A DNA stretch of 38,550 bases. Origin: a virus. The notes under the pieces are model-generated. The model worked only from the letters and a program-made list of their open reading frames with translations. It was not told the origin of the DNA and ran no database searches. Positions 21,892 to 31,438 of the stretch are shown here, one piece after another. The DNA is taken from positions 1 to 38,550 of IMG/VR virus record IMGVR_UViG_3300025896_000071, one strand, 5' to 3'. Every line of letters starts with the position of its first letter. Positions within the stretch are counted from its first letter, which is position 1. The translations under genes and the position numbers were made by a program.

Positions 21892-23379
21892 ATGGCCTAC
21901 GGACAAAAAAACTATAACGAGATACAGGGCATAAACGGCAAGTACCGTATTAATCAGATTGGCTGTTTTATTACTGCCTTCTCAAACCTTCTTGAACGCT
22001 TTGGCAAGGGTGCGAACCCAATCCAGTTAAACGCTGCCTTCCGTGATCGCGGTATCTATATTGATGTCGATGACGGCATTCGTGACGACCTCGGCTGGGG
22101 ATCCATTAGCGCCTACAACGGCAACATTGTCGTATCTCGATCAGCTAATAACAGCGCAGTACCTAACAATAATTGTATTGTTCGTATCGCCGCCAAAAAT
22201 AGCTTTGGCACTCACTTTTGCCTTGTTGAGCGAATAGATAACGGTGTCGTCTATATTGTTGACTCTTGGGACGGCCAAGTAAAACCAGCTTCTAGCTATG
22301 GACCAATAACCGGATGGGCTGAATACCGAGACAATACACCGATCCCTGTGCAACCTGTTGTGCCGCCAGCTCCTGCAGTACCTAGCGACCAGTCCGTATT
22401 AACAGTGCAACCGGGCTGGGGCATAAGCCACGTGCTCAAGGCTGCGGGATATCCACAGGAAAGCTATAGCCGACCTGAAGAGTGGGATCGCTTCGCTAAG
22501 CTAAATGGCAAGTCCAGCTTAAACCCCAACGATAAAGTCAGCGTATACAAACAGCCTTTGCCTCTAGCGGCACCCGCTCCACAACCGGCACCACAACCCG
22601 AGTCAGATGTGATTAATATCACAGTTCAGAGTGGCTGGGGTATTTCGCATGTATTAAAGGCCGCCGGCTACAATAAAGAACAGTGGGAAAACCCTGCAGA
22701 GTGGGCACGTATGTCAGCCCTTAACGGTGTTACTAGCGGCAATATGCGCTTGCAGCCTAATCAGATAGTTAAGGTCAATCGGACACCTATCGCCCCAGCT
22801 CCGACCCCTGCTCCAGTTGTTGTATCGCCCCAACCAGCTCCTGTTGCTCCACAGCCAGTAACGCCAGTGAAGCCCACAGAAGCCGCCCCTGCGCCTGAAA
22901 AGCCCAAAGTCGAACCAGAACCCGTATTGCTTGCAAAGCCCGGCTGGAAGACTACATTTAAGCCTGAGAGCAAGGTATATATCGCCAGCGATAGTGTGAT
23001 CATTAAAGACCAAGCTGGATTACAGGCCGATCTTCAATTAGTAAAAGGCCAGAAGGTAACTAGTGCCGGCACGTTCGTAAAAGGCGATGTCACCTATGTT
23101 CGAACCAAGAAGAGCCTTGATAACGATTGGTGGTACGGTATACCAGTTACAGCCTTGGATAAAGGCCAAGACCCCAATAAATACGTCGGCCCGCTTGTAG
23201 ATGATGACGATGATGATTCTATTTTCGACCTTCCTATGGATCTAGCCGATGAAGCTAAAGAGCTATTCAAGAACTACAGTAACCGCGAGAAGCTGGTCGC
23301 AGTAGTTGGCAAGATCGAAGGTAGCGTATTAAGATTGCTCAACTTCATAAACATATTTAAAAAGAAAACTGAAAAATAA
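21892..23379 (+). CDS. endolysin: C39-like cysteine peptidase with two wall-binding-like repeats
   Basis: This 495-residue lysin starts with a papain-like C39-type domain: QIGCFITAFSNLL (Cys25), SFGTHFCLVERID (His108) and VVYIVDSWDG (Asp124) give a Cys-His-Asp triad. Two LysM-like repeats follow, each starting GWGISHVLKAAGY (near residues 180 and 248), separated by Pro/Ala linkers. A third Pro-rich linker leads to an SH3-like domain (IKDQAGLQADLQLVKGQKV). The end has a run of Asp and a basic tail. It has no signal peptide, so release should depend on the adjacent holin. It starts behind AAAGGAAAC. Confidence 0.8.
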   Translation: MAYGQKNYNEIQGINGKYRINQIGCFITAFSNLLERFGKGANPIQLNAAFRDRGIYIDVDDGIRDDLGWGSISAYNGNIVVSRSANNSAVPNNNCIVRIAAKNSFGTHFCLVERIDNGVVYIVDSWDGQVKPASSYGPITGWAEYRDNTPIPVQPVVPPAPAVPSDQSVLTVQPGWGISHVLKAAGYPQESYSRPEEWDRFAKLNGKSSLNPNDKVSVYKQPLPLAAPAPQPAPQPESDVINITVQSGWGISHVLKAAGYNKEQWENPAEWARMSALNGVTSGNMRLQPNQIVKVNRTPIAPAPTPAPVVVSPQPAPVAPQPVTPVKPTEAAPAPEKPKVEPEPVLLAKPGWKTTFKPESKVYIASDSVIIKDQAGLQADLQLVKGQKVTSAGTFVKGDVTYVRTKKSLDNDWWYGIPVTALDKGQDPNKYVGPLVDDDDDDSIFDLPMDLADEAKELFKNYSNREKLVAVVGKIEGSVLRLLNFINIFKKKTEK

Positions 23380-24716: not shown

Positions 24717-25067
24717 TTATTGGATTACAGGTGCAGTGTCGTCGACAACTGGAGGCTGTGGTACTGGTGCCGGTGCTGCCTCTACCGCAACAGGCTGGCC
24801 TTCGACTGGTGGCTGGGTAGGAATAGCTGGCTGTTCAGGCTTAAGTTCTTCTGCAAGTTCGGCGGCATCTTCAGCAATTTCTTCAGCTTTTTCGGCAGGG
24901 GTATCAGCTTCTGGTTTACTAAGCTCATCAAACTTTGCAAGGTTTTCTTTTGATTCCTTAACATAGGCTTCAGCCTTCTCGACGATAGAGACCAGCTCTT
25001 CTCGAGTAACTTTGTGGGCTTCGATTACGTTGATAACTGTTCCATCTTCGTTTTTTACTAACTGCAT
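24717..25067 (-). CDS. Glu/Ala coiled-coil protein with Pro-rich tail
   Basis: This 116-residue protein has a first part MQLVKNEDGTVINVIEAH with a short beta module. A Glu/Ala-rich coiled coil (KAEAYVKESKENLAKFDELS, AEKAEEIAEDAAELAEEL) and a Pro/Val tail follow. The start at 25067 is chosen because AAAGGAG lies just upstream of it. An in-frame ATG ten codons earlier has no such site. It is very acidic. The role is unknown; it might bind a nucleic-acid-binding partner. It follows the MraZ-like gene. Confidence 0.65.
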   Translation of the reverse strand: MQLVKNEDGTVINVIEAHKVTREELVSIVEKAEAYVKESKENLAKFDELSKPEADTPAEKAEEIAEDAAELAEELKPEQPAIPTQPPVEGQPVAVEAAPAPVPQPPVVDDTAPVIQ

Positions 25068-25098: not shown

Positions 25099-25662
25099 TT
25101 AATTAAAGCGTATTTTCTTAAAACGTGCTAGTAGACTGTCCTTGGCCTTGATGCCCTCCTTCTCATTGTAGTTTTTAATATCGTGGATCTCCGCATGGTA
25201 TATAACACCGATAATAGCGACCTTTACTTCAAGCCCAGCATAGTCGGCAAGGTGTACCGGTATGTCTAACGTGCCATCGTCATTCAGTTTATTAAAGCGG
25301 TGCATATTACCAAAGATATGTCGTGCGGCAGAGCTTAATACAGGACTTGGGCCGACATGCTTTGATAGTCGCCGGCTGAATCTGGCCCAGTGTCGGCCAC
25401 CGAACAGGAGCAAATGATTGTCGGTACTAACGGTTATTACACCGCCGCCTTCAAAAAGATGTCGGAGTTCCTCGGGGATCATCAGCTTGTAGTGAGACAT
25501 GTAGCTCTCCCACTTACCTTCGAACGGAACTGAGTCGCGGATATTATCCTCGAGTTTTTTTGTTCGCTCTTCCCAAGTATCGGTTACGATGTGGACCGGC
25601 CGAGTTGGGCTGCCAATACTGGTCAGGGCATCGATGTACTCTTTTTGTTTTGCCTCATCCAT
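25099..25662 (-). CDS. MraZ-like transcription regulator (double AbrB fold)
   Basis: This 187-residue protein aligns with MraZ, the bacterial regulator at the head of the dcw cell-division cluster. From residue 61 the pattern runs IPEELRHLFEGGGVITVSTD, LLLFGGRHWARFSRRLSK, PVLSSAARHIFGNMHRF, then the second AbrB repeat NDDGTLDIPVHLADYAGLEV and VAIIGVIYHAEIHD. In cellular MraZ each repeat carries D-x-x-G-R. Here the second repeat has D-D-G-T and the first has lost the motif, so DNA binding may differ. There are about 50 additional N-terminal residues. The start at 25662 fits a promoter directly upstream. A longer frame extending upstream overlaps another gene and is not used. Confidence 0.8.
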   Translation of the reverse strand: MDEAKQKEYIDALTSIGSPTRPVHIVTDTWEERTKKLEDNIRDSVPFEGKWESYMSHYKLMIPEELRHLFEGGGVITVSTDNHLLLFGGRHWARFSRRLSKHVGPSPVLSSAARHIFGNMHRFNKLNDDGTLDIPVHLADYAGLEVKVAIIGVIYHAEIHDIKNYNEKEGIKAKDSLLARFKKIRFN

Positions 25663-25668
25663 ACCGGA

Positions 25669-25697
25669 ATTATAACCCTTATGTCTAGATATATAAA
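25669..25697 (-). promoter_or_regulatory. promoter of the MraZ-like gene (leaderless)
   Basis: On the minus strand a perfect TATAAT (25674-25669) lies six bases before the ATG, with TTTATA (25697-25692) at 17-bp spacing. Transcription should start at or very near the A of the start codon. No Shine-Dalgarno sequence is close enough to be useful. Confidence 0.55.
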
Positions 25698-25717
25698 AAC
25701 AGCCCCTTGTGGGGCTG
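25695..25717 (-). terminator. rho-independent terminator after the 25721-26026 gene
   Basis: Read on the minus strand, CAGCCCC, loop ACAA, GGGGCTG is a perfect 7-bp stem followed by five T. It separates the upstream part of the minus operon from the MraZ-like gene, which then has its own promoter overlapping the T-tract. Confidence 0.8.
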
Positions 25718-25720
25718 CCG

Positions 25721-26026
25721 TTATTGCACTTGCTGTAGGTTGCAGACTGGCCGGCTCTTGCCGGTTCGTTGTGCTGGTGTGAGCGCGTCGAAGGCTTTAA
25801 CACCGTCTTGGCACTCATCGATGAGGCGTTGCTTTTCAGCAGCCTCAACTTGCTGACGTTTCTGCTCGGCACGTTGCACGGCCTTGGTTTCTTGCTCTCG
25901 CTGGTATTCAGCATACTGAGATTGAACCCTTTGGCTAACCTCGTATCTATCCCACGCTCGGACACTCAAGATGCCTAGAACGAAGACCACTATTAATGCA
26001 ATACCCACGATTATTTTGTTTCGCAT
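25721..26026 (-). CDS. membrane-anchored coiled-coil protein
   Basis: This 101-residue protein has an N-terminal transmembrane segment (IIVGIALIVVFVLGILSV, residues 5-22) and a charged coiled coil (QREQETKAVQRAEQKRQQVE, residues 43-68), ending with two Cys. The topology resembles Rz-type spanins or other phage membrane-tethered coiled coils, but no Rz1-like partner is evident. It starts behind GAAAGGAA. A terminator follows immediately. Confidence 0.65.
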   Translation of the reverse strand: MRNKIIVGIALIVVFVLGILSVRAWDRYEVSQRVQSQYAEYQREQETKAVQRAEQKRQQVEAAEKQRLIDECQDGVKAFDALTPAQRTGKSRPVCNLQQVQ

Positions 26027-26133: not shown

Positions 26134-27183
26134 TTATTTTTTAACTTGTGAGGTTATTGGGAATGTAGCATGTAAATGATCGTCGTGCAATAATTTTGTC
26201 ATAACTGCCTCGACTACATTGGTTGTTACGGCGTTACCGCATTGCTTATAACGCTGAGTATTACTGCCTAGTGTCCAGTCGTCTGGGAAGCCCTGAAGCC
26301 TCTCGCACTCGATAGGAGTTAGCCGTCTAATTCTGCCGTTTACGATGCCAAAATTACCCTGAGACTTATTAACAAAATCTGATCCAGTTTTTTTGTAGTC
26401 ACTAGCCTTAAGAGAATAAGCGGTCTCCGTATCAATGACATGTGGTATCTCAGTAGCCTGCAGTGTAGTGCTTGGACTGATCAAGCCCCCGTTTTGGCTG
26501 AGGTGCCTTGTCTTAATAAACTTTTGCGACTCTTGTGTGGCATTGCTGCTAGGGATAGCAACTGCTTGGTTTTCTCCGGAGATAGGTAATATGTTTTGTC
26601 TACATTCGTCTCTAAGATGTCCGATAATGTAGATTCGCTCACGGTTCTGTGGAACTCCGAAGTGCTTGCTGTTAAGTACCTGCCATTCAACTCGATACCC
26701 CAAGTCGGCGAGAACCCCAAGTATTGTCTGGAAAGTTTTGCCACCGTCGTGACTAAGCAAACCTTTAACGTTTTCAAGTACCAGATGTCGGGGTCTTTTT
26801 TCTTTGAGAATCCTTGCGATGTCAAAAAAGAGTGTCCCTCTGGTGTCGTCAAATCCCCTGCGCTTTCCAGCAACGCTGAAAGCCTGACAAGGGAATCCGC
26901 CGACAACGAGGTCGAAGTCGGGGAGTTCTTCTGGGTTGATAGTGGTAATGTCTCCAAAGTTTTCATGCTCGAAGTGCTCCTCGTATGTTTTGATTGCTGG
27001 TTCGTCGATCTCGGAATAGCCAACACAAGTGGGTGGTGTCCACCTCCCGCCGGAGTTCGAAGTGTCGGGCATATTTCGAAGAGACGAATCCCCTCCCCGA
27101 ATCCTCCGTATATGTTGTGTAGCATTTTGTATTCCAATTTCAAACCCTCCAATACCCGAGAATAGACTCAGGTACTTAATCAT
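26134..27183 (-). CDS. DNA cytosine-5 methyltransferase
   Basis: This 349-residue m5C methyltransferase is complete. Motif I is SLFSGIGGFE (residue 6 on), motif IV is GGFPCQ with catalytic Cys99, motif VI is LENVKG, motif VIII is QNRERIYIIG, motif IX is RRLTPIECERLQGFP and motif X is QCGNAVTTNV. The start at 27183 directly precedes motif I; upstream codons are a different gene in another frame. About 34 residues (20-53) rich in Arg/Gly/Ser separate motif I from motif II (VGYSEID). No restriction enzyme is nearby, so it probably protects phage DNA from host restriction. Confidence 0.95.
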   Translation of the reverse strand: MIKYLSLFSGIGGFEIGIQNATQHIRRIRGGDSSLRNMPDTSNSGGRWTPPTCVGYSEIDEPAIKTYEEHFEHENFGDITTINPEELPDFDLVVGGFPCQAFSVAGKRRGFDDTRGTLFFDIARILKEKRPRHLVLENVKGLLSHDGGKTFQTILGVLADLGYRVEWQVLNSKHFGVPQNRERIYIIGHLRDECRQNILPISGENQAVAIPSSNATQESQKFIKTRHLSQNGGLISPSTTLQATEIPHVIDTETAYSLKASDYKKTGSDFVNKSQGNFGIVNGRIRRLTPIECERLQGFPDDWTLGSNTQRYKQCGNAVTTNVVEAVMTKLLHDDHLHATFPITSQVKK

Positions 27184-27634
27184 TAGATCGCACCCCAAAC
27201 AAACTAGTCTGAAACTTTTTCTCTTTACCAAGCCGGCCGGAGAGTATAACCTCCCGAGCATTCTTTGGTGACGTTTCAATTTGCCGTTCACCGGTTTCAT
27301 GGAAGTACCCAAGCAGGAAATCGGACAGGTTCTGCTTTGCTGTTTTGAGAGCATCCTTTTCGTCGGCCAGCTCTTCGCAAAGATCATTGTATCCGTCAAC
27401 TCTAGATAGTCGATCCTTGAGCTTCTCTTGAGCTAAGCGCAAAGCATCCTGCGCTCTCATCACCTCTGTATATTCGTCGGTATTCTCGGCCATTTCGACA
27501 AGCTGCTCTTGGATCGTTTTTATGCGTGACTGAAAAGAATTGATGTCGCCTTCAAATGTTCGAACCTTGCTGATCCAGTCTAGTACTTTAGGGTCTGCCT
27601 CTATTTCAATTGTCGCCGGTGATTTTTTTGCCAC
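27176..27634 (-). CDS. coiled-coil protein of the recombination operon
   Basis: This 152-residue protein starts with GTG at 27634, behind AGGAG at seven bases. The central 100 residues form a long coiled coil (EGDINSFQSRIKTIQEQLVE, ALRLAQEKLKDRLSRVD). The end, FLLGYFHETGERQIETSPKN then AREVILSGRLGKEKK, looks like a small folded domain. It could be a nuclease inhibitor or DNA-binding accessory protein, but it is not recognised. Both ends overlap neighbouring genes. Confidence 0.65.
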   Translation of the reverse strand: MAKKSPATIEIEADPKVLDWISKVRTFEGDINSFQSRIKTIQEQLVEMAENTDEYTEVMRAQDALRLAQEKLKDRLSRVDGYNDLCEELADEKDALKTAKQNLSDFLLGYFHETGERQIETSPKNAREVILSGRLGKEKKFQTSLFGVRSND

Positions 27635-30299: not shown

Positions 30300-30330
30300 A
30301 TAGCCCCTCTCTTTGTTACGTTGTAGTTAC

Positions 30331-30359
30331 AGTATATGTATATATACAGAACTTGTAAA
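30331..30359 (-). promoter_or_regulatory. promoter of the leftward recombination operon
   Basis: On the minus strand TTTACA (30359-30354), a 17-bp spacer and TATACT (30336-30331) form a near-consensus sigma-70-type promoter. The predicted start is near 30324, which gives a leader of about 25 bases before the first ORF. It probably drives all genes down to the terminator at 25717, if not beyond. Confidence 0.7.
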
Positions 30360-30387: not shown

Positions 30388-30396
30388 TGTGGATAA
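30388..30396 (-). other. perfect DnaA box (TTATCCACA)
   Basis: The plus strand reads TGTGGATAA, the complement of the consensus TTATCCACA. It lies in the divergent intergenic region, overlapping the foot of a long hairpin by two bases. It may be part of an origin or a DnaA-responsive control element for the divergent operons. Confidence 0.5.
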
Positions 30397-30437
30397 AATT
30401 AAACCCCCGGGCGGGCGGCAACCGAGGGTTTAATTTT
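30395..30437 (+). terminator. strong hairpin with T-tract in the divergent region
   Basis: AAAATTAAACCC (30395-30406) pairs perfectly with GGGTTTAATTTT (30426-30437), and a smaller CGG-CAA-CCG hairpin lies inside. Six T end the plus-strand side and four follow on the minus side, so it may work in both directions. It lies upstream of the leftward promoter, so it would insulate the two divergent operons from each other. Confidence 0.65.
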
Positions 30438-30597: not shown

Positions 30598-31029
30598 ATG
30601 GATGCAATAGTAAAACGATATTACCGAACCCGATCCGCATGGTGGCGTTTGAATAGGCTGCTATTTCCAAGCCCGGCCGAGCTGCGGCTTATTGAAATTA
30701 TGGGCGGCAAGTATTGGAAGATTGAATGGCTGAAGCACCCGCGCACTAAGTTCCGTTTTGCTATTGTTTTGTCGCTCGGCAAATTCCTGCGCGACGAAAA
30801 GTTTGGTCGGGAAGTGCGTGTCGGCAAGTACTATATAGACTTTGGCAATGACGTGCTGATGGGCATTGAAGTTGATGGCGCAGAGTACCACCGCGACGTG
30901 GTTGCAGCGTTCGATCGGGACTCATATTTATACCAGCGCAATTGGCGAGTGATGCATATTATGGCCGTTCGTTTGTGGAACGAGCCGGCCGTCGTGCAAC
31001 GCGAAGTACTTAAATTTTTGCACACTTAA
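30598..31029 (+). CDS. DUF559/Vsr-like PD-(D/E)XK endonuclease
   Basis: This 143-residue protein resembles DUF559/Vsr-type small nucleases. Its C-terminal half holds the core: VRVGKYYIDFGNDVLMGIEV followed by DGAEYHRDVVAAFDRDSYLY and NWRVMHIMAVRLWNEP. The Asp of YIDF, the Glu of GIEVDG and the downstream Asp/Arg fit the fold. The N-terminal 50 residues (SPAELRLIEIMGGKYWKIEW) are helical. Such proteins act on mismatched or nicked DNA or serve as restriction-like nucleases. ATG 30598 has no Shine-Dalgarno sequence, and a CATAAT lies seven bases upstream. Confidence 0.8.
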   Translation: MDAIVKRYYRTRSAWWRLNRLLFPSPAELRLIEIMGGKYWKIEWLKHPRTKFRFAIVLSLGKFLRDEKFGREVRVGKYYIDFGNDVLMGIEVDGAEYHRDVVAAFDRDSYLYQRNWRVMHIMAVRLWNEPAVVQREVLKFLHT

Positions 31030-31133
31030 GTGGCTCTATGAACAAAAAATGTACCCAGAACACGCTATGACGTCCGGCATATTGCCTCGTCTGAACACAA
31101 TACACAGTACACTCCAACCCCTGAAAAAAACGT

Positions 31134-31161
31134 TTGCAATTACTATTAAGTGCGGTATACA
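31134..31161 (+). promoter_or_regulatory. promoter of candidate small RNA 1
   Basis: TTGCAA (31134-31139), a 16-bp spacer ending in TGCGG and TATACA (31156-31161) form a promoter-like pair. An AAAAAAACGTTTGCAA motif overlaps the -35, so a repressor that binds that motif would block it. The spacer ending is shared with the promoter at 32934-32961. Confidence 0.5.
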
Positions 31162-31162
31162 C

Positions 31163-31270
31163 TAGGGGAAGTGATAGATTCTAAGCGGTCGATCACCAAA
31201 AACAAAAAACGTTTCAAAACAAATATATAAAGCGTCCCGTTCTCTCGCAAGATGGGACGTTTTAATTTTT
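31163..31270 (+). ncRNA. candidate small RNA 1 (about 105 nt)
   Basis: Downstream of the promoter there is no ORF but two clear hairpins. GTGATAGA (31171-31178) pairs with TCGATCAC (31189-31196) with one mismatch. The terminator AGCGTCCC (31231-31238) pairs with GGGACGTT (31254-31261), followed by TTTAATTTTT. The region between is A-rich and single-stranded, with a second AAAAAACGTTT. It resembles an independently transcribed phage sRNA. Target and family are unknown. Confidence 0.55.
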
Positions 31271-31438
31271 ATAACACTTACAAACAGATTACGAACAAAA
31301 GCCCCCTACCCTACTGGCGTTTTTGTCAATTTTATGCTCTGACTAGGGGTGACACCTTATACTAGGGAGTAGAGTAGGGGAGAGCACTACCTATACTTTT
31401 ATAGTACAATTAGCGTGAAAGAGAGGGAGAATTAACTA

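Follow-up and report, generated by a model that had tools for sequence, protein, structure and literature searches.

The analysed stretch of DNA, the whole 38,550 nucleotides of IMG/VR record IMGVR_UViG_3300025896_000071 (hereafter the window), carries genes for terminase, portal, head, tape-measure, RecT/RecE-like and helicase proteins and is a genuine tailed-phage genome. On its minus strand, an open reading frame with its ATG at 25662 and its stop codon at 25099-25101 encodes a protein (P0001) that, judged by its sequence, is a divergent member of the MraZ domain family and not an equivalog. The gene lies exactly where the preliminary description had placed it, and its surroundings are given in Table 1.

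Table 1. Features of the mraZ locus in the window
Feature	Position	Strand	Remarks
Gene of downstream acidic/proline-rich protein	24717..25067	-	116 aa from an SD-preceded ATG; L028 orthologue 61%; neighbour only
Gene of MraZ-domain protein P0001	25099..25662	-	187 aa; Pfam MraZ, TIGR00242, L028 orthologue
Basic C-terminal tail, residues 171-187	25102..25152	-	SLLARFKKIRFN invariant between phages; net charge +5
MraZ repeat 2, residues 117-168	25159..25314	-	Loop N-D-D-G-T131 versus bacterial D-x-x-G-R
MraZ repeat 1, residues 47-100	25363..25524	-	Loop S-H-Y-K59-L-x-I-P versus bacterial D-x-K-(G/N)-R
N-terminal extension, residues 1-46	25525..25662	-	No known domain; 59% identity between the two phages
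21-nt block TAGACATAAGGGTTATAATTC	25667..25687	-	Identical in both phages; contains -10 TATAAT; candidate operator in spacer
Intrinsic terminator of upstream gene	25698..25719	-	Immediately precedes the mraZ promoter; L028 has the hairpin too
Gene of upstream small membrane protein	25721..26026	-	Weak Rz-like spanin resemblance; L028 orthologue 76%; neighbour only

The same locus is found in a second phage contig, IMGVR_UViG_3300006805_000214 (L028), which was reached through an IMG/VR scan with the endolysin-like gene of the window. There, an orthologue of identical length (L028:9154-9717) shares 67% identity with P0001 and has the same gene order around it. For most genes compared between the two phages, synonymous sites have reached or nearly reached saturation, also in the mraZ pair, which shows no length change and a dN of 0.26; the protein is thus under purifying selection. 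Neither the window nor L028 has a match to rsmH, and P0001 is not located upstream of rsmH (mraW) at the head of a dcw cluster. A scan of IMG/VR with the two-phage alignment recovered only the same orthologue, and a further related contig (L002, 82% terminase identity), a fragment of 14.6 kb, shows no match to the MraZ protein. As for other genes of these phages, a C5-cytosine methyltransferase is encoded near mraZ at 26134-27399 and has no match in L028, where a 58-aa ORF occupies the same place (L028:10230-10406), so that this site is a cargo spot. The 495-aa product of 21892-23379, without a Pfam or PHROG match and 72% identical in L028, is called endolysin-like from its position only.

The preliminary description had aligned this protein with MraZ, and the alignment is real. 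P0001 matches Pfam PF02381 with 26.2 bits (E 7.6e-6), above the gathering cut-off of 23 bits, and its L028 orthologue does so with 30.1 bits; a six-frame scan that scored one stretch alone gave 18.5 bits, under the same cut-off. NCBIfam TIGR00242 matches both phage proteins (best E 6.2e-10) and covers residues 58-168 of P0001 with 34 bits (E 2.5e-8), which is far under the equivalog cut-off of 98.35 bits. Moreover, none of 1000 shuffles reached the alignment score of P0001 with any of three bacterial MraZ (z 9.8-15.6), hhalign against these three gave a P-value of 1.3e-9 and a probability of 96.4, and a profile built from both phage proteins found the MraZ of M. pneumoniae (1n0e) in the PDB at E 4.5e-7. 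In all, residues 47-168 of P0001 match MraZ, and the TIGR00242 and hhalign matches cover both repeats. Because of the profile, hhalign and shuffle scores, the resemblance is homology and not chance. AbrB-type antitoxins and regulators, such as MazE, AbrB and SpoVT, belong to the same general fold class as MraZ; P0001 differs from them in the two repeats of its single chain, and it has no Pfam SpoVT-AbrB match and no adjacent match to a toxin family. Scone propeller designs, which phmmer proposed as relatives through many weak pieces only, were rejected.

An AlphaFold model of residues 44-187, built with the two-phage alignment, has low confidence (mean pLDDT 62.7, pTM 0.56), and the P0001 sequence alone gave a pLDDT of 38.6. 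Compared with the PDB by fold, this low-confidence model has MraZ chains of M. pneumoniae or M. genitalium as each of its 16 best matches, with E from 2e-3 to 0.1 and probabilities of 0.87-1.00. These come from crystal and cryo-EM structures that include the MraZ-promoter complexes 9r4j and 9sz7, and the next match is an unrelated protein (E 0.38, probability 0.04). Among viral predicted structures, no good match to the model was found (best E 0.15). The MraZ proteins of Mollicutes (M. pneumoniae 1n0e; M. genitalium 9qlg, 9r4j and 9sz7) are the nearest in the PDB by both sequence and fold. The earlier proposal of a phage-encoded MraZ homologue is supported by the profile matches, by the comparison of folds and by the orthologue in synteny.

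By its sequence, P0001 shares with MraZ (TIGR00242/PF02381) the two tandem repeats and a set of positions, P63, R67, R114, A142, G152 and E158, that match all or nearly all of ten aligned bacterial MraZ (E. coli, eight human-gut or wastewater contigs and one Cyclobacteriaceae MAG). However, it is phage-encoded, is not placed before rsmH, has only ~22-23% identity to bacterial MraZ and stays under the equivalog cut-off, and both phage proteins carry K and T/S in place of R and have, in addition, 46 residues at the N-terminus and a basic tail. The ten bacterial proteins (10/10) have an arginine in both loops, in D-x-K-(G/N)-R of repeat 1 and D-x-x-G-R of repeat 2, and so do those of Mollicutes (N-R-I in repeat 1; G-R-V or N-R-I in repeat 2), whereas the phage proteins lack it in both. 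In repeat 1, they read S/T-H/E-Y-K, with K59 common to the two; the D and G of the bacterial motif are gone, as had been claimed, but the arginine is conservatively replaced by lysine rather than lost. In repeat 2, an invariant N-D-D-G is followed by T131 in P0001, the threonine already noted in the preliminary description, and by S in L028. Thus, neither repeat of P0001 has the arginine typical of TIGR00242 members. The N-terminal extension that had been described is also present, although it comprises about 46 residues before the canonical M-F-x-G start and not 50. In E. coli MraZ, DNA binding reportedly depends on the loop arginine. The replacement of these residues in the phage proteins argues against a simple mimicry of host MraZ.

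Canonical MraZ forms a ring-shaped octamer or larger oligomer and represses its own dcw cluster through short direct repeats, of the type TGGGN or, in Mollicutes, AAAGTG[T/G]. In the window, TGGG pairs and Mollicutes-type AAAGTGK repeats occur at chance level only, and the TGGGN-type repeats that the preliminary description had in mind are not enriched. The region before mraZ has other features. A promoter-like TTTATA-17-TATAAT directly follows the terminator of the upstream gene, and its -10 element (25669-25674) lies 6 nt before the mraZ ATG, from which a leaderless mRNA is predicted. The -35 element differs between the two phages while the 21-nt block is identical, and the motif of this block occurs exactly once in each phage, with no copy elsewhere in either. 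Since promoter-like sites around mraZ are no more numerous than in shuffled sequence, what speaks for this promoter is its conservation. The conserved spacer is a candidate operator and, thus, MraZ could regulate its own gene.

Other elements lie at some distance from mraZ. A noncoding segment at 31115-31275 (L028:14032-14190), between a DUF559 gene and a ParB-methyltransferase gene, has exact blocks of 32, 18 and 20 nt common to both, two hairpins, one small and one terminator-like with compensatory changes (four pairs changed on both sides), and a promoter-like TTGCAA-16-TATACA read by eye; it has no Rfam match up to E 1 and, from these features, looks like a phage small RNA. The DUF559-like gene itself (30598-31029) is 93% identical between the phages, with a dS lower than that of most neighbours and no INPHARED match, and a promoter-like CATAAT stands 7 nt before its ATG, so it may be a second leaderless gene. 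In a divergent intergenic region, a palindrome spans 30327-30358 and is for the most part kept in L028, and an inverted repeat of 16 nt lies at 30395-30437; these could represent operators or an origin.

P0001 is a novel form of MraZ, one carried by a phage. In PHROGs, no family matched P0001 up to E 1 or the MraZ of E. coli, and the single match of a gut MraZ was to an antitoxin family, at 23.7 bits. Two bacterial MraZ queries matched 12 and 14 INPHARED records, among which the inspection covered nine MraZ loci, the other matches being to records of Salmonella (two) and Staphylococcus (one) and to some short contigs. All nine have rsmH directly downstream and, therefore, appear to be pieces of bacterial chromosome deposited as phage; these mraZ-rsmH loci stand in MT835527, MT835696, MT837062, MT836342, MT836760, OR846610, OR848336, OR847157 and OR847061. 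Pattern scans of IMG/VR derived from MraZ alignments matched 35 stretches, with no confirmed MraZ among them, though exact-motif scans of this kind would miss distant copies, and a scan with the P0001 pattern found nothing in the same database. In genome contigs, the P0001 scan had a single match (L008), which is a false positive, being a repeat protein without relation to MraZ, and pointed to no host or bacterial donor that could be named. Among the titles and abstracts listed by text searches, none was relevant to a phage-encoded MraZ, nor did look-ups in papers on phages of Patescibacteria, a group considered as hosts from a general impression, find a mention of one. Within the limits of the PHROGs, INPHARED, IMG/VR and text searches, MraZ encoded by phages appears to be undescribed outside this lineage, in agreement with the preliminary description, which knew of none.

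The reading favoured here, tentatively and at a little under an even chance, is that P0001, with two tandem MraZ/AbrB-type repeats between its 46-aa extension and its basic tail, would form oligomers, bind DNA and regulate transcription, with DNA-reading loops that depart from the canonical MraZ-box code, K standing for R in repeat 1 and T or S for R in repeat 2. Transcription of the gene would start at a promoter of its own and would probably yield a leaderless mRNA; the protein would probably regulate its own synthesis through the conserved promoter block and control phage or host promoters. Since the DNA-reading arginines are replaced, its targets are probably other than the usual ones of MraZ. 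The profile matches of both proteins, the PDB match of the two-phage profile and the 16 MraZ fold matches count for such a regulator, as do the conservation of the orthologue, the identical 21-nt block, the loop substitutions common to both phages, the invariant basic tail, and the phage genes around mraZ, without rsmH, in the window and L028. Against it count the low confidence of the model (mean pLDDT 62.7), the chance level of box-type repeats in the window, and a conserved block that occurs once per phage, with no target promoter located and one orthologue only; moreover, DNA binding could be lost together with the arginines that the ten bacterial MraZ retain.

A broader proposal, that this phage lineage captured MraZ and rebuilt it as an anti-division or division-reprogramming factor acting through co-assembly or competition with host MraZ, is rather doubtful. 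With the oligomer interface kept but not the DNA-reading arginines, P0001 could enter the rings of host MraZ and, as a dominant negative, derepress the host division cluster. The core positions P63, R67, R114, A142, G152 and E158 are kept while the arginines of the DNA loops are replaced, which counts for such a role, and M. genitalium without MraZ derepresses ftsZ, with many cells stuck in cytokinesis (PMC8475190). Nevertheless, an identity of only ~22-23% to the aligned bacterial MraZ speaks against joint assembly, and K59 and the basic tail suggest that nucleic-acid binding is retained, which makes this poisoning unlikely. It is improbable that P0001 binds the MraZ boxes of the host, shutting its division and cell-wall cluster and halting septation during infection. 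Recognition of canonical boxes would hardly survive the replacement of both loop arginines in both phages, and boxes are not enriched in the window, though they would matter in the host; the proposal draws on the promoter that phage mraZ seems to have for itself and on the repression of dcw by MraZ in both E. coli and M. genitalium (PMC8475190).

The replaced arginines, the unique N-terminal extension and the label of the Pfam family, 'putative antitoxin-like', would also be consistent with an AbrB-fold protein repurposed away from DNA, as an antitoxin-like, scaffold or protein-binding factor. This role is decidedly improbable, given that the basic tail and K59 are conserved and that adjacent genes have no toxin-family match; a toxin-antitoxin reading proper was rejected on that same lack of a toxin-family match in the neighbour genes and of a Pfam AbrB/MazE match in P0001. 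Finally, host-chromosome contamination, the explanation for the inspected INPHARED records, is refuted by the position of mraZ between phage genes, without rsmH, in two syntenic contigs, and chance resemblance by the profile, shuffle and fold evidence, so that both together have a negligible probability.

Few bacterial regulators are as conserved as MraZ, which heads the division cluster and whose purpose is under debate. That a phage lineage keeps its own MraZ, rewired in the loops, would suggest a part for MraZ as target or tool in the conflict between phages and their hosts, and would provide a natural variant for asking which residues set DNA specificity and ring assembly. Moreover, it would add a phage protein that may touch cell division by transcription and not by binding the division machinery.
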